Positions 1,053 to 34,672 of a stretch of DNA of 64,000 nt are shown in pieces. A model generated the notes under the pieces. That model was given only the letters and a program-made list of their open reading frames with translations. It had not been told where the DNA came from and searched no databases. Positions within the stretch are counted from its first letter, which is position 1; each line of letters opens with the position of its first letter. A program made the position numbers and the translations under genes. The stretch is from Flavobacteriales bacterium (GTDB taxonomy: Bacteria; Bacteroidota; Bacteroidia; Flavobacteriales; Flavobacteriaceae): positions 1 to 64,000 of the forward strand of contig WTJC01000038.1 in the NCBI GenBank assembly GCA_011525015.1, in the 5' to 3' direction.

Positions 1053-2639
1053 ATGAACAAGAAGTGGTTTTCGTATACCATAGGTTTGATGTGTTTGGCC
1101 CTTGCGGGAATTGTTGTCGTTCAAGTTTATTGGATGCAAACGGCATTCAGTTCTAAGTCAGAGGAATTTTCTAATGTAATTTCTGATGTTTTAAACTCAA
1201 CGGCTGAAAATGTAGAAGCAAAGGAGCGCAAAAGATATTACGACAAACTCGCTTTTTTAATCGACAGTATTGGAGATCCCCAATCCCAACAAATTCAAAA
1301 TTTCTTTTTTATCGACAGAAGTCTAACCGATGAGGAAATTCTTTTTTACTCCCACGGCATTTTAAAAGAGGGCTATGACATGCCATCTACTTTTCTCGAT
1401 GACAAAGGACAGTTGATTCGAGACACCTCAACCATTTACAATTACACTTCTACCCGCACCAAACGAATTTTTAAGGCGAGTTCTACTTTAGACAACAATG
1501 AGACATATTTAGAGCCTGTTGAGGTTTTAGAGAAAATTGGGGGATTGACTAAAATGGAAAAAGCCCAATATGATGATGTTTTTATGGAAGCGGCCAAAAC
1601 CATACCCATTCACAATAGAATTGAAGTAGAAGACTTGTATCAAGCTATTGAGAGTGAATTAAAAAACCGAGGAATTGATTCAAGATTTGAATTTGGTGTT
1701 GAAAGTATGCAGTTTCCAACATTAGTCAGAAGTGAGCAATTTGATTTTAAGAGTGAAAATTTATACAAGGCTCCAATATTCAAAGACAGTGAGGGGATGA
1801 CTGATTACACCTTAGCCTTGTTTTTTCCTGATCGAAGAGAATTTCTACTCTCTGAAATAGCTAGTCTAGTGACGCTTTCGGTCGTCTTTACTGCAATTAT
1901 CATTATTGTTTTCATCATTTCAATTTATCAACTCATCACTCAAAAGAGAATTTCTGAAATTAAAAGTGATTTCATCAATAATATGACGCATGAGTTCAAA
2001 ACACCTATTGCGACCATCAATTTAGCCGTGGAATCTATCAAAAACCCAATTATCTTTTCAGATAAAGAAAAACTTGACCGCTACTTGCAAATGATTCGAG
2101 ATGAAAATAAAAGAATGCACGCACAAGTAGAAAATGTTCTTCAAATTTCAAAGTTGGAAAAAAGACAATTTGAAGTTGAAAAAGAAGAATTGAGTATTCA
2201 TGAAATCATATCAGAGGCGATAGTTCATGTTGAATTGCTCATAGATCACAGAAAAGGCCTTCTCGAAAAAAAATTGCAAGCAAAAAAAGATAGAATTGAA
2301 GGAAATGCCCATCACTTGACGAATTTAATGGTCAATATTTTAGATAATGCAGTCAAATACTCAGATCAAGAATTGTATATAGGGATACAAACCTATAATG
2401 AAAATAATGCTATAGTTATTAGAATCGAAGACAGGGGCGTTGGAATGACCAAGGCTGTCTCAAAGAAAATTTTTGAGAAGTTTTATCGTGAACACACGGG
2501 TAACATACACAATGTAAAAGGTCATGGACTTGGACTTTCTTATGCTAAGCATATCGTTGATTTACATAATGGCTCAATTTTTGTTGAAAGTGAAAAAGGA
2601 AAGGGTAGCGTATTTTTTGTAAAACTCCCTTTGACTTAA
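1053..2639 (+). CDS. Sensor histidine kinase (membrane bound)
   Basis: Two TM segments; HisKA H-box 'FINNMTHEFKTPIATI', N box 'NLMVNILDNAVKYS', G box 'GHGLGLSYAKHIVDLHNG'. Confidence 0.95.
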   Translation: MNKKWFSYTIGLMCLALAGIVVVQVYWMQTAFSSKSEEFSNVISDVLNSTAENVEAKERKRYYDKLAFLIDSIGDPQSQQIQNFFFIDRSLTDEEILFYSHGILKEGYDMPSTFLDDKGQLIRDTSTIYNYTSTRTKRIFKASSTLDNNETYLEPVEVLEKIGGLTKMEKAQYDDVFMEAAKTIPIHNRIEVEDLYQAIESELKNRGIDSRFEFGVESMQFPTLVRSEQFDFKSENLYKAPIFKDSEGMTDYTLALFFPDRREFLLSEIASLVTLSVVFTAIIIIVFIISIYQLITQKRISEIKSDFINNMTHEFKTPIATINLAVESIKNPIIFSDKEKLDRYLQMIRDENKRMHAQVENVLQISKLEKRQFEVEKEELSIHEIISEAIVHVELLIDHRKGLLEKKLQAKKDRIEGNAHHLTNLMVNILDNAVKYSDQELYIGIQTYNENNAIVIRIEDRGVGMTKAVSKKIFEKFYREHTGNIHNVKGHGLGLSYAKHIVDLHNGSIFVESEKGKGSVFFVKLPLT

Positions 2640-2650
2640 ATCTTATACCT

Positions 2651-3358
2651 ATGGAAGAAAAAAGAAGAATATTATTAGTTGAAGATGATCCCAATTTTGG
2701 AATTGTTTTAAGGGACTACTTAGGAATGAATAATTTCGAGGTTGTGCTGGCTAAAAATGGTATGGAGGGGTTTGAAAAATTCAAAAAACAGGAGTATGAC
2801 GTCTGTATACTAGATGTCATGATGCCTTATAAGGACGGTTTTACACTCGCACGTGAGATCAGGCAGCAAAATCAACATGTTCCCATCATATTTTTAACAG
2901 CTAAGACTATGAAAGAAGATGTCTTAGAAGGCTATAAAGCAGGGGCAGACGATTACTTAAACAAACCTTTTGATTCTGAGGTTTTGCTGGTAAAAATCAA
3001 AACGATACTAGAACGAAAGTCAATTAATAGTCAATCTATTCAATCTAAACAGTTCGAATTTGAGATTGGAAATTTTCAGCTCAACAGTAAATTAAGGTTT
3101 TTGAGTTATGCTGGTGAAGAGCCTATTAAGCTGTCCCCTAAAGAGAATGAGTTGTTAAAATTGCTCGCTCTCCATCTCAACGATTTGATGCCGCGAGAAC
3201 TCGCCCTAACTCAAATATGGCGGGACGATAATTATTTTACTTCCAGAAGTATGGATGTGTATATCGCCAAACTGCGCAAATACCTTAAAAAGGACGAAAA
3301 GGTTGAAATACTTAATATTCATGGTGAGGGATTCCGTCTGGTTGTAAACCCTGATTAG
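2651..3358 (+). CDS. OmpR/PhoB-family response regulator
   Basis: Receiver domain 'LLVEDDPNFG...DVMMPYKDGF...LTAK...KPF' plus winged-helix C-terminus; 11 bp downstream of the histidine kinase. Confidence 0.95.
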   Translation: MEEKRRILLVEDDPNFGIVLRDYLGMNNFEVVLAKNGMEGFEKFKKQEYDVCILDVMMPYKDGFTLAREIRQQNQHVPIIFLTAKTMKEDVLEGYKAGADDYLNKPFDSEVLLVKIKTILERKSINSQSIQSKQFEFEIGNFQLNSKLRFLSYAGEEPIKLSPKENELLKLLALHLNDLMPRELALTQIWRDDNYFTSRSMDVYIAKLRKYLKKDEKVEILNIHGEGFRLVVNPD

Positions 3359-3361
3359 TTT

Positions 3362-4759
3362 TTAGGCTCCGTATAATTCAAATAATATCGCATTACACAT
3401 GGCTTCAACAGGCTCTTCTGTGTTCAATTGTATGGCGCCTTCATCTCGCTCATAAGTATCCAACTGGCTTTGCAGTAAACTCTCCGGCATAAAGTGATCT
3501 CTTCGCTCTTGAAGTCGCTTTTGAATTACTTCGGCATTTGCTTCTAAACAAACCCAATTGATCTTGTTTTTCACATCTTTTTCAAGAATCCTGCGGTATT
3601 CATGTTTTAAGGCCGAGCAGGCGAGAATTAATCCATGAGCCGTTTCGCTCTTTTTGATATGTGAGTTGAGCTCTTGTAGCCATGGTAATCGATCTTGATC
3701 ATTGAGCGGTACACCTGATTTCATTTTTTGTTTGTTGGCTTCAGGGTGAAAGTCGTCCGCATCTGAAAAGGGAATCGCTGTTATATCTGATAATTTTTGA
3801 CCCAAAAAGGTTTTGCCTACGCCACTAACTCCAGTTATAATCACTATTTCGCGCTTATTTTCTATTCGGGATTTAATTTTTTGGAGCTGATGACTTCTTG
3901 AAAGTTCAAAACCAACCCAATGAATATCTTCGTTTTTACGGTACCAGGTTAATTGTCTTTTTGCGTATCGTCGGCTGTTTTTTTTGATTTCTTCAATGGC
4001 ATGTTCACGGCTGATTTGGTTGTCAAAAAATAAAAAAGCCTCTTTGTAACCTACTGTATTTAAAGCGTTTAGTTCTTTGTGTTGAACTAAATTTTGAACT
4101 TCCGTAAAGAGTCCTTCATGGAGCATTAGATCAACACGTTTATTAATTCTATTGTATAATAGAGCTCGTTCGATTTCAATTCCAAAATGAAGAATTCTAT
4201 AGGGCAGTTTATTTGAAGACTTATTCAAAAAACTTGAATATGGACTACCGCTACTGCGACATACTTCAAGGGCTCTTATGAGTCTATGCGGATTGTTGAT
4301 ATCAACTTTATCATAGTATTCAGGGTCTTTCTGTTTTAATTCATCCTGCAGGGATTTAAGCCCCTCTTTTTGCAGTTGAGTGTTGAGATCATGGCGAATA
4401 CTGGTTTCAATTTCAGGAAACTCATCTATTCCGTTGATTAAAGCATCCATAAATAGGGTACTTCCTCCAACAGCGACTACGAATTCATGTTTTGCAAATA
4501 AAGCATCTAAGATTGTTCTCGCTTCTTGAACAAAATCTCCTAGAGTGTAGACTTCACATACTGATTTGTGCTGTATCAGGTGGTGCTTGACCTCTTTTAA
4601 TTCACTATCACTCGGTACTGCTGTACCAATCATCATTTCTTTATAAAATTGGCGACTATCGACCGAAATGATTTCTGTTTGATAGGTTTTAGCAAGATCA
4701 ATCGCTAAACTTGTTTTACCGGATGCAGTAGGGCCAGAGACACAAAGTAGGGTTTTCAT
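3362..4759 (-). CDS. miaA: tRNA dimethylallyltransferase (MiaA) fused to a gluconokinase-like (GntK) domain
   Basis: N-terminus: GPTASGKT, SVDSRQFYKEM, NPHRLIRALEV, GYKEA, RRYAKRQLTWYR (MiaA). C-terminal about 163 aa: TGVSGVGKTFLG, DADDFHPEANKQKMKSGVPLNDQDRLPWL, ACSALKHEYRRIL, HFMPESLLQSQLDTYE (GntK). Confidence 0.9.
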   Translation of the reverse strand: MKTLLCVSGPTASGKTSLAIDLAKTYQTEIISVDSRQFYKEMMIGTAVPSDSELKEVKHHLIQHKSVCEVYTLGDFVQEARTILDALFAKHEFVVAVGGSTLFMDALINGIDEFPEIETSIRHDLNTQLQKEGLKSLQDELKQKDPEYYDKVDINNPHRLIRALEVCRSSGSPYSSFLNKSSNKLPYRILHFGIEIERALLYNRINKRVDLMLHEGLFTEVQNLVQHKELNALNTVGYKEAFLFFDNQISREHAIEEIKKNSRRYAKRQLTWYRKNEDIHWVGFELSRSHQLQKIKSRIENKREIVIITGVSGVGKTFLGQKLSDITAIPFSDADDFHPEANKQKMKSGVPLNDQDRLPWLQELNSHIKKSETAHGLILACSALKHEYRRILEKDVKNKINWVCLEANAEVIQKRLQERRDHFMPESLLQSQLDTYERDEGAIQLNTEEPVEAMCNAILFELYGA

Positions 4760-5610
4760 AGTTCATCACCGCATTTAAAGCAGAATTGAGCATCATCCTC
4801 ATGACCTTCTACACTGCAATTTCTACAGGCTTGGGTATTTTGTTTGGTGTATTTCTGGTTGAGCGATGCTGTAACGATTCCGGTAGGTACAGCAATGATT
4901 CCATATCCTAAAATCATGACCATGGTTGCGATGAACTGTCCTAAAGGGGTTTGAGGTGCGATATCACCGTAACCTACCGTAGTTAGAGTTACTATGGTCC
5001 AATAAATTGATCTGGGTATGCTGCTAAAACCTGAGCTTTCTGGCTCAATGATGTACATCAGTGTACCCAATAGGATAGCCAAAATACATACGGTATATAT
5101 AAAAACTAGAATTTTGATTCTACTCGCTCTTAACGCCTGTCCTAAATGTGATGCAGCACTTGTAAATTGAACGATTTTTAAAATTCTAAAAATCCGTAAT
5201 AGCCTAAGGGTGCGAACGGTGATTAATGCGTGATATCCGGTTGTAAATAAAGAAATATAGAGTGGGAGTGTGGCTAATAAGTCAATAATGCCATAAAAAC
5301 TGAAGATATAGGCTTTTGGTTTTTTAACTGAAACGATTCTTAGTACATATTCAACGCTAAAAAAAATAGTGATGCTCCACTCAATGACTTTAAAGACCTC
5401 TTGATATTGAGCATTGATACTTTCAACACTCTCTAGCATTACAGTCACTAGACTGCTGAGAATTAATACGATTAATACGATGTCAAATATTTTGCCAAGT
5501 GGAGTGTCGGCCTCAAATATTACTTCGTGTATTTTTTCTCTAATCTTCAAGGAGTTGAATTTCGTATTTCTCTGGATTTTCTTTGAATTTTTGCTCGATG
5601 AGCTGACCAT
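4756..5610 (-). CDS. Voltage-gated potassium channel-like ion transporter with C-terminal zinc ribbon
   Basis: S4-like 'RTLRLLRIFRILKI', selectivity filter 'TTVGYGDIAPQT', C-terminal CRNC-x11-CFKC. ATG at 5610; the tracked 5616 start is TTG. Confidence 0.85.
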   Translation of the reverse strand: MVSSSSKNSKKIQRNTKFNSLKIREKIHEVIFEADTPLGKIFDIVLIVLILSSLVTVMLESVESINAQYQEVFKVIEWSITIFFSVEYVLRIVSVKKPKAYIFSFYGIIDLLATLPLYISLFTTGYHALITVRTLRLLRIFRILKIVQFTSAASHLGQALRASRIKILVFIYTVCILAILLGTLMYIIEPESSGFSSIPRSIYWTIVTLTTVGYGDIAPQTPLGQFIATMVMILGYGIIAVPTGIVTASLNQKYTKQNTQACRNCSVEGHEDDAQFCFKCGDEL

Positions 5611-6649
5611 AAACAACTAGATCTTGCTCAATTTTAATCAAATTTTTTTGAAGAATCTCAATTTTACTAATCTGATAATTCAATTTACAGAGCCCAAAGT
5701 ATTTCAATTCTTTGTTTTTAATGAAATACACATATTTTTGAGAAGAGCTGTTCTCTTTTTCGATCAGCAAAAATGCCTTGTGCTTTTCGAGAAGTAGATC
5801 TTCTTGCTTTTCGGAAGTATTTTTTTTCAATTCTTTGTTCTTAAATCGACCCTCTGTTTCGTGAAGAAACTTGATGTTCCGGTATAACTCATTAGAAATC
5901 AACTGTTCAATGATGTTTTTGGTCTTCTTTTGCAGTGAAACATCCTTTTTAGATTGGGATGCAAATTTCTTGCTAAGTGTAGTTTTAATGTTTTTACTCT
6001 GCCCGGTGTAGATCAGATTATCTTCTTTGCCGTACAAATAAAAAATACCTGCTTCTTCACTTAGGTTGTTGATCAAGTCGATTTGTTTTTGGCTTAAATG
6101 AAAGTGCTCATTTTTCTTGATAAGGGATTTTAAAATCTCTTGTTTGCTGTCTTTTTGAAGTAGAATTTTAAACAATTCCAGAGTGGCTTGTGCGTCTCCT
6201 GTGGCCCTGTGTCTATTGCTTACAGCGATACCCAATGCTTTTACCAATTTACCTAGGCTGTGCGAATCTGCTTCTGGAATTAATTTTTGAGACAATTCAA
6301 CGGTACATAAGGTGTCTTTTGTAAAATCATAACCCAATCGATCAAACTCTAACTTCAAAATTCGATAATCAAAACTGGTATTGTGTGCGACAATAACGCA
6401 ATCTTCGGTGATTTCTATGATTCTTTTGGCTACCTCGTAGAATTTTGGAGCATTTTGGAGCATTTTATTTGAGATACCCGTGAGCTTTACTACAAATTCT
6501 TGAATGGCTCTTTCTGGATTGATGAGCGATTGAAAATAATCGACAACCTGATTTCCATCAAATTTATGAATTGCGATTTCAGTTATTCCCTCTTTATTAT
6601 AGGCTCCACCAGTGGATTCTATGTCTAATATGGCAAAATAGCGTTTCAA
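5540..6649 (-). CDS. DnaQ-like 3'-5' exonuclease with GIY-YIG-like domain
   Basis: 'FAILDIESTGG', 'AHNTSFDYRIL', 'HRATGDAQATLELF' exonuclease motifs; 'GIFYLYGKEDNLIYTGQSKNIKT' GIY-YIG-like. Start codon is TTG. Confidence 0.85.
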   Translation of the reverse strand: MKRYFAILDIESTGGAYNKEGITEIAIHKFDGNQVVDYFQSLINPERAIQEFVVKLTGISNKMLQNAPKFYEVAKRIIEITEDCVIVAHNTSFDYRILKLEFDRLGYDFTKDTLCTVELSQKLIPEADSHSLGKLVKALGIAVSNRHRATGDAQATLELFKILLQKDSKQEILKSLIKKNEHFHLSQKQIDLINNLSEEAGIFYLYGKEDNLIYTGQSKNIKTTLSKKFASQSKKDVSLQKKTKNIIEQLISNELYRNIKFLHETEGRFKNKELKKNTSEKQEDLLLEKHKAFLLIEKENSSSQKYVYFIKNKELKYFGLCKLNYQISKIEILQKNLIKIEQDLVVYGQLIEQKFKENPEKYEIQLLED

Positions 6650-7302
6650 TGCTTGTAATTTCTCGCTCCGAAGATACGGCTACCCACTCTAATCATTGTA
6701 CTTCCACAATCTATGGCAAGCGGATAATCTCCACTCATACCCATGGATAGAATCTCTAAATTCTTGAAATCTATTGCTTTTTCTTTAAAGAGTTGTGCCA
6801 AATAAGTGAACTCCGATCTTAATTGGTTTTGGTCATTGGTAAAAGAAGCCATTCCCATTAAGCCTTTGATATTTACAAATTCGAATGTGTCACTTGACGA
6901 AAGTATTTCATCCAATTCGGTAGCAGACAAGCCGAATTTGTGTTCTTCTTGTGCGATATGAATTTGTAAAAGGCAATTTATTTTGAGGTTTAATTTGCTT
7001 CCTTGTTTATTTATTTCTTTGAGTAGCCTTAAACTATCCACAGAGTGAATTAAAGAAATAAAAGGCGCGATATATTTTACCTTGTTGCGCTGCAGGTGAC
7101 CAATCATGTGCCACTCTACATCATCGGGTAATTGAGTGTGCTTCTCGACAAGCTCTTGCACCTTGTTTTCTCCAAAGATGCGCTGACCACCTTCATATGC
7201 TTCTTTTAAAGCATCAACGGGTTTGGTTTTAGATACAGCGACTAAGGAAACCTGTTCAGGAATTTCAGTAATGATTTGTTCTAAATTTTCTCTTATGCCC
7301 AT
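6646..7302 (-). CDS. YggS-family pyridoxal phosphate-binding protein
   Basis: 'LVAVSKTKP', 'FGENKVQE', 'WHMIGHLQRNKVK', 'LSMGMSGDYPLAIDCGSTMIRVGSRIFG'. Confidence 0.95.
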   Translation of the reverse strand: MGIRENLEQIITEIPEQVSLVAVSKTKPVDALKEAYEGGQRIFGENKVQELVEKHTQLPDDVEWHMIGHLQRNKVKYIAPFISLIHSVDSLRLLKEINKQGSKLNLKINCLLQIHIAQEEHKFGLSATELDEILSSSDTFEFVNIKGLMGMASFTNDQNQLRSEFTYLAQLFKEKAIDFKNLEILSMGMSGDYPLAIDCGSTMIRVGSRIFGARNYKH

Positions 7303-7328
7303 TTTTGAAAAAAATTACTTGAGGTTAT

Positions 7329-8321
7329 TTAGTTTCCTGAATAATTCAATTGGCTTTTTATTTTCGAAACAATTTCTAAAGCCACTTTTAAGGCTTTAGT
7401 TCCATCCTCTAAAGTTACCAAGGGTGAACGCTTTGAATGAATCGCCTCGGCTAAATTTTCAAGTTCATCAAGTATTGCATTATTCATTGCTGTTTTTGGC
7501 TTTTCGAAATGCAAAATCTTTGTTTCTCCTTCAGCATTAGTCAAGGTCATTTGATAAGGATCTATGGGCTCATCTGCTCTAGGGCTATCAATTTTCACAA
7601 TTTCACTCTCTTTTTCTAAAAAATCAATACTGATGTACGCATCCTTCTGAAAAACTCTGGTTTTACGCATGTTTTTTAGTGAAATTCTACTTGCTGTTAA
7701 ATTAACCACAGATTTGTTTTCAAACACCAATCGGGCATTTGCAATATCGGGTGATTGCGAAAGTACACAGGCCCCACTGGCATGAACTTCTGCTAAATCT
7801 GAAGAAATCATACTCAAAACAATTTCGATGTCGTGTATCATCAGATCCATCACCACAGAAACATCTGTTCCTCTGGGATTGAATTCAGAGAGTCGATGTG
7901 TTTCAATAAACATGGGGTTGTTGATGATATCTTTTACAGATTTTAACGCTGGGTTGTACCTTTCGACGTGTCCAACAGCTCCAACGACTCCTTTTTGTTT
8001 GGCAAGGGTAATTAATTCTTCCGCTTGCTCTAGGTTTAAGGTTATCGGCTTTTCGATAAATAGGTGTTTATTGAACTCAAGGGCTTTTTTTGCGATTTCA
8101 AAATGAGTGAGTGTTGGGGTGACAATCACCGCCACATCTATGTCGTTTAGAAGTGCTTCTTGGGACGAAAAAAATTTGTAACCCAGTGTGTTTTGAATTT
8201 CAATTGCATGTGAGTTGTTGTTGTCATAGAATCCAACTAACTCATATTTAGAAGATTCCTTTAATAATTTCAAATGAATCTTTCCCAAATGACCTGCTCC
8301 AAAAACACCGGCTTTTAACAT
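7329..8321 (-). CDS. Gfo/Idh/MocA family oxidoreductase
   Basis: 'KAGVFGAGHLGKIHLKLL', 'HLFIEKPITLNLEQAEELI', 'GHVERYNPAL'. Conserved region starts at the internal ATG at 8321. Confidence 0.9.
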   Translation of the reverse strand: MLKAGVFGAGHLGKIHLKLLKESSKYELVGFYDNNNSHAIEIQNTLGYKFFSSQEALLNDIDVAVIVTPTLTHFEIAKKALEFNKHLFIEKPITLNLEQAEELITLAKQKGVVGAVGHVERYNPALKSVKDIINNPMFIETHRLSEFNPRGTDVSVVMDLMIHDIEIVLSMISSDLAEVHASGACVLSQSPDIANARLVFENKSVVNLTASRISLKNMRKTRVFQKDAYISIDFLEKESEIVKIDSPRADEPIDPYQMTLTNAEGETKILHFEKPKTAMNNAILDELENLAEAIHSKRSPLVTLEDGTKALKVALEIVSKIKSQLNYSGN

Positions 8322-8396
8322 AGAATTATTTTTCTGCAAAAATAGCCATATAAGTAGAGTTAACAATGTTTAATTTTGTTCTACACGGATTAACAA

Positions 8397-9056
8397 ATGC
8401 ACAGAAAAGACGAGTTAAAACATCAGGGAATGCGTAATCATTTGGTTTCAGAACTAAAAACCAAAGGAATTACAGATGAGAACGTCTTAAAAGCAATTGC
8501 CAAGGTGCCACGTCATCTTTATTTAGATAGCAGTTTTGAAGCGCATGCTTATCAGGATAAGGCCTTTCCGATTGGAGCGAATCAAACCATTTCTCAACCT
8601 TTCACCGTAGCTACCCAAACGGCTTTGCTTGAGGTGAAATCAGGAGATAAAATTTTGGAGGTTGGTACGGGATGTGGTTATCAAACAGCCGTATTAATTG
8701 CCTTAGGAGCAAAGGTGTATACTGTTGAGCGCCAATTGGAATTGTTTAAAAAAACAAAGTTGTTTTTTCAACAAATGCCTTATCGTCCTAAAAAAATGAT
8801 TTATGGTGACGGTTATATCGGTTATGCTGAGCAGGCTCCATTTGACGGTATAATTGTGACTGCAGGTGCTCCTGAACTGCCAGAAGCTTTGTTAAAGCAA
8901 CTTACTTTGGGAGGCAGATTGGTGATTCCCGTAGGAGATGGAAGTACGCAGCAAATGCATAAGTACGTCAAAACGTCGCCCACAAAATTCAGTAAAAGTC
9001 TGCACGGTGAATTTCGTTTTGTACCACTACTTGAAGACAAAGAAGGCTTGTCTTAA
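8397..9056 (+). CDS. pcm: Protein-L-isoaspartate O-methyltransferase
   Basis: 'VPRHLY', 'AFPIGANQTISQPFTVATQTALLEV', 'ILEVGTGCGYQTAVLI', 'GDGYIGYAEQAPFDGIIVTAGAPELPEALL'. Confidence 0.95.
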   Translation: MHRKDELKHQGMRNHLVSELKTKGITDENVLKAIAKVPRHLYLDSSFEAHAYQDKAFPIGANQTISQPFTVATQTALLEVKSGDKILEVGTGCGYQTAVLIALGAKVYTVERQLELFKKTKLFFQQMPYRPKKMIYGDGYIGYAEQAPFDGIIVTAGAPELPEALLKQLTLGGRLVIPVGDGSTQQMHKYVKTSPTKFSKSLHGEFRFVPLLEDKEGLS

Positions 9057-34582: not shown

Positions 34583-34667
34583 GGAGAGATGGCAGAGTGG
34601 TCGAATGCGGTGGTCTTGAAAACCATTGAGGGTCACACCTCCGGGGGTTCGAATCCCTCTCTCTCCG
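34583..34667 (+). tRNA. tRNA-Ser (anticodon TGA)
   Basis: Acceptor GGAGAGA/TCTCTCC, anticodon loop CTTGAAA, long variable arm, TTCGAATC T-loop, G discriminator. Confidence 0.96.
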
Positions 34668-34672
34668 CATCG

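Follow-up and report, generated by a model that had tools for sequence, protein, structure and literature searches.

Results

The fused gene and its domain organization

The window, that is the whole stretch of 64,000 nucleotides that was analyzed, carries on its minus strand (3362..4759) an open reading frame (ORF) of 465 amino acids running from ATG to TAA without any internal stop. We could thus confirm on the sequence the uninterrupted frame claimed in the first-pass annotation, together with all the motifs quoted there. The N-terminal part (residues 1-302, 3854..4759) is a MiaA domain, i.e. a tRNA A37 dimethylallyltransferase, with its P-loop GPTASGKT at residues 9-16 (4712..4735). The C-terminal part (residues 303-465, 3365..3853) is a gluconokinase domain of the GntK/IdnK type with its P-loop GVSGVGKT at residues 310-317 (3809..3832). 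Upstream, an ion-channel gene on the same strand (4756..5616) shares its last 4 nt with the start of miaA, a gene order also found in relatives. On the other side, a convergent response-regulator gene (2651..3358, plus strand) ends 3 nt from the fused ORF.

AlphaFold was run on 46 sequences from the window and the loci. The model of the fusion (mean pLDDT 92, pTM 0.77) displays two well-formed domains and no disordered segment. The domain boundary lies around residues 301-304, between a helix (residues 288-300) and a strand (residues 305-310). A linker is practically absent in this model, in which the helix runs to residue 300 and GntK begins with a strand at residue 305.

Both domain models exceed their curated cut-offs, which bears out the earlier reading of a complete MiaA and a complete GntK in one frame. 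The MiaA equivalog TIGR00174 matches residues 6-283 (profile positions 3-284 of 288) with 269.6 bits for a cut-off of 148.65, and Pfam IPPT matches residues 37-275 (3e-77). The nearest solved relatives of this half are MiaA structures, and Foldseek aligned the domain with 2zm5 and 3foz at TMt values of 0.87-0.89 (2zm5: TMt 0.89, rmsd 2.3). In the seven fused proteins described below, all residues of the MiaA P-loop are invariant except S13 (S, I or L). The fold of MiaA is of the P-loop type, yet the enzyme moves a dimethylallyl group and not a phosphate, and the description of both halves as P-loop phosphotransferases has therefore to be corrected. A tRNA with A36-A37-A38 is a typical MiaA substrate; the window itself contains such a tRNA-Ser(UGA) (34583..34668, plus strand), and MiaB is encoded in the same genome.

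For the second half, TIGR01313 (gluconokinase GntK/IdnK) matches residues 307-453 (profile positions 2-153 of 164) with 143.5 bits for a cut-off of 113.75. The nearest solved relatives retrieved by phmmer are the gluconokinases 4eun, 3t61 and 1knq, and Foldseek aligned the domain with gluconate kinases at TMt values of 0.78-0.85 (0.85 for 4eun and 0.83 for 1knq). The P-loop residues G310, V311, S312, G313, G315 and K316 are invariant in the seven fused proteins. In the clade of the window, this half sits on a long branch and is 39-46% identical to the stand-alone GntK sequences.

Conservation of the fused gene

An ORF of identical length was found in two metagenome-assembled genomes (MAGs) of the same genus, MED604 (87% identity) and MED603 (83%). 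Among these three genomes, dN/dS ranges from 0.09 to 0.15 in the MiaA half and from 0.10 to 0.14 in the GntK half (Nei-Gojobori, with dS partly near saturation). Both halves are thus maintained by purifying selection. No second copy of miaA or gntK was found in the genome of the window, which is 92% complete. When MED603 (L032:6001-7398) is compared with the window (3362-4759), dS is higher in the GntK half (1.0-1.2) than in the MiaA half (0.5-0.7), possibly as a result of recombination in the 3' part.

Gene order and repeated origin of the fusion

We surveyed 399 genomes of Flavobacteriaceae. Four more of them carry a fused gene: G197 (476 residues), G372 (477), G118 (463) and G183 (466). No fusion beyond the known ones was found in 395 phylum-level genomes (E <= 1e-105) and no further one in the order-level sample of 396 genomes (E <= 1e-110), thresholds below which divergent fusions could fall.

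The window and its relatives have a block of genes in common, in the order Gfo/Idh, yggS, exonuclease, ion channel, miaA, gntK and gntP where present, convergent response regulator and histidine kinase; in the relatives, gntK, with or without gntP, is located between miaA and the response-regulator gene. The pairing of the two enzymes, first considered as isolated, therefore has a clear context: in many Flavobacteriaceae, gntK comes immediately after miaA, often followed by the gene of a gluconate:H+ symporter and sometimes as a gntK-gnd fusion. As a rule, relatives have the two as separate genes, either side by side or unlinked, and gntK adjoins miaA at 3 of 22 loci from other genera of the family that were taken regardless of gntK. 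The adjacent pairs differ in their junctions. In five genomes (G339, G134, G264, G089 and G128), miaA and gntK are in frame and split by a stop, the junction of G339 reading AAT TAG ATG. The other pairs abut or share 4 or 8 nt, and more than that when the longest ORF is read.

A tree was built from seven proteins of the block in 38 genomes, with MiaA included and the GntK columns left out. Weighing fusion and fission alike, this tree requires four changes to the fused state: in the window clade, in G197 together with G118, in G372 and in G183. Constraining all fused genomes to one clade was rejected with the seven-protein tree (p-AU 6.6e-6) and with GntK alone (p-AU 0.045), which rules out a single ancestral fusion. 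The fusion thus arose about four times from neighboring head-to-tail genes, and the idea of a newly arisen two-domain enzyme proves to be right, several times over. The gntK of the window clade may go back to one miaA-linked insertion in common with the others or to one of its own: a single origin obtained a p-AU of 0.48, with the GntK of this clade on its long branch.

The MiaA of the window clade is only 44-48% identical to that of same-genus genomes. A horizontal replacement of miaA is unsupported, most of the syntenic block diverging similarly. Indeed, between the window (1053-9056) and loci L123, L124 and L125, which are labeled as the same genus, protein identity is about 40-60% for most block genes and 78-79% for the response regulator. 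The genus as labeled seems to be very broad.

Gluconate metabolism in the genome of the window and in relatives

The first-pass annotation saw no other gluconate gene in the window. However, the genome of the window encodes on other contigs a GntP-family symporter (contig 8, TIGR00791, 532 bits for a cut-off of 292.75) and the 6-phosphogluconate dehydrogenase Gnd (contig 32, TIGR00873, 440 bits for a cut-off of 426.7), so that gluconate import and 6-phosphogluconate use are both represented. In relatives, the symporter gene is adjacent: it directly follows gntK in G089, G402, G416, G262, G128 and G412, and it also comes after the fused genes of G197 and G118. The fused gene of the window clade has no gntP next to it, and the closest symporter of this clade shares only 34% identity with that of the relatives' cassette. 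A true 6-phosphogluconate dehydratase (Edd) was found in none of the 33 genomes searched, that of the window included; all matches to TIGR01196 are far below its cut-off, with scores such as the related IlvD would give. On this ground, an Entner-Doudoroff use of 6-phosphogluconate was rejected. With a symporter, Gnd and no true Edd, the likely route, following established pathway knowledge, is from gluconate via 6-phosphogluconate to the pentose phosphate pathway.

Fusions of gntK with gnd, 627-629 residues long, lie directly behind miaA in G128 (L115:7453-9336) and G412 (L116:7118-9007). Frames of 628-673 residues in G352 and G541 are candidates for the same fusion by their length. In two unfused genomes of the window's genus (G001 and G007), a gntK-gnd-gntP operon is found away from miaA (L120:3245-6452 and L121:4289-7526). 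In the fused genome G183, gnd matches as two adjacent pieces (G183:C1:592462-593324), which suggests a frameshift or a sequencing error.

Discussion

Altogether, the most probable explanation is that miaA and gntK, two ordinary enzyme genes in a tightly packed operon, were joined by the loss of a stop codon into one gene for a bifunctional protein whose domains work independently. What is seen in some marine Flavobacteriaceae would thus be the fusion of operon neighbors and not a new pathway. In a compact ancestral operon, gntK would already have followed miaA immediately, belonging to a cassette for gluconate uptake (gntK, gntP and, in some genomes, gnd), and loss of the miaA stop would have left both to be read as one ORF. 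Repeated stop loss appears as the simplest route since relatives exist in which the two genes are in frame and separated by a stop. In the cell, a single polypeptide would then prenylate A37 of UNN-reading tRNAs with its N-terminal domain, using DMAPP, and convert gluconate and ATP into 6-phosphogluconate with its C-terminal one; 6-phosphogluconate dehydrogenase would feed this product into the pentose phosphate pathway. The "moonlighting" that had been evoked is unnecessary, the second domain being a recognizable enzyme and an adjacent operon gene in relatives.

One could also imagine that the gene yields two products, the fusion and a separate GntK started internally. Start-like codons do occur at the junction, where stand-alone GntK starts: the ATG of the old start is kept in G197, G372 and G118, while it is absent in the window, where GTG (Val306, 3842..3844, minus strand) is the only start-like codon from residue 265 to the GntK P-loop. 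We find this reading unlikely on the whole. The window clade, where the internal ATG has been lost, is a less probable source of such an additional GntK.

Another hypothesis would be that the C-terminal domain has changed its substrate to another sugar acid, or to RNA or a nucleoside, as the divergence of this half in the window clade might indicate. This is improbable: the domain scores above the GntK family cut-off with its motif residues kept, its closest folds are gluconate kinases and the relatives' gntK copies sit with gluconate symporters.

One would also wonder whether selection has coupled i6A37 modification of tRNA to gluconate and pentose phosphate flux in Flavobacteriaceae, through regulation, shared localization or stoichiometry. 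The sole hint of such a coupling is the recurrence of the fusion, about four times; in addition, the window clade has lost the internal ATG and keeps both halves under purifying selection. However, tRNA prenylation and gluconate phosphorylation have no substrate or product in common, separate genes prevail in relatives, and, provided that tightly packed in-frame pairs are common, repeated fusion comes as no surprise. Moreover, gntK also fuses to gnd in this family and may simply be fusion-prone; operon order alone can therefore produce such joins. We consider this coupling to be improbable.

Finally, an assembly or sequencing artefact (a missed stop or frameshift) is practically excluded although MED604 and MED603 are MAGs, since the survey of relatives found the fusion in independent genomes, at equal length in three of them with 83-87% identity and in four others, including the 9-contig assembly of G372.

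The bifunctional protein, probably formed by stop loss, is a clear case of two unrelated pathways meeting in one protein, with every intermediate stage existing in living relatives: genes far apart, next to each other, overlapping, or in frame and parted by a single stop, and fused genes with the old GntK start either kept or lost. It also calls for caution: that two genes are fused (the 'Rosetta stone' rule) is by itself a poor ground for inferring a functional link. Gene finders, for their part, should not call the MiaA or the GntK domain of such a fusion spurious. In the open-access literature searched, we found no paper that describes a gluconokinase fused to MiaA or to a dimethylallyltransferase; a study on Helicobacter pylori deals with sequence divergence of miaA and not with a fusion (PMC3120642). 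MiaA and GntK are known families, and it is their combination that appears to be new.

A parallel can be drawn with the known enzymes and gene clusters. The protein of the window shares the full-length domain, the motifs and the fold of known MiaA proteins (TIGR00174; 2zm5/3foz from Escherichia coli, 3exa from B. halodurans), but has in addition a C-terminal kinase domain of 163 residues. With known GntK/IdnK proteins (TIGR01313; 1knq from E. coli, 3t61 from S. meliloti), it shares the full-length domain, the P-loop, the fold and the motifs DADDFHPEAN, ACSALK and HFMP..LLQSQ; GntK is free-standing in these systems, whereas it is joined here behind MiaA. The miaA-gntK(-gntP) cluster of Flavobacteriaceae (Allomuricauda abyssi L033, G416, G402, G089 and others) has the same genes in the same order as the window and, likewise, lies between the ion-channel gene and the response regulator, but its ORFs are separate, either overlapping or divided by a stop, where the window has only one. 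Lastly, the gntK-gnd fusions of G128 and G412 resemble that of the window in that gntK is joined to an operon neighbor. There, gntK is joined to the gene for the enzyme that follows in its own pathway, whereas in the window the partner is MiaA.
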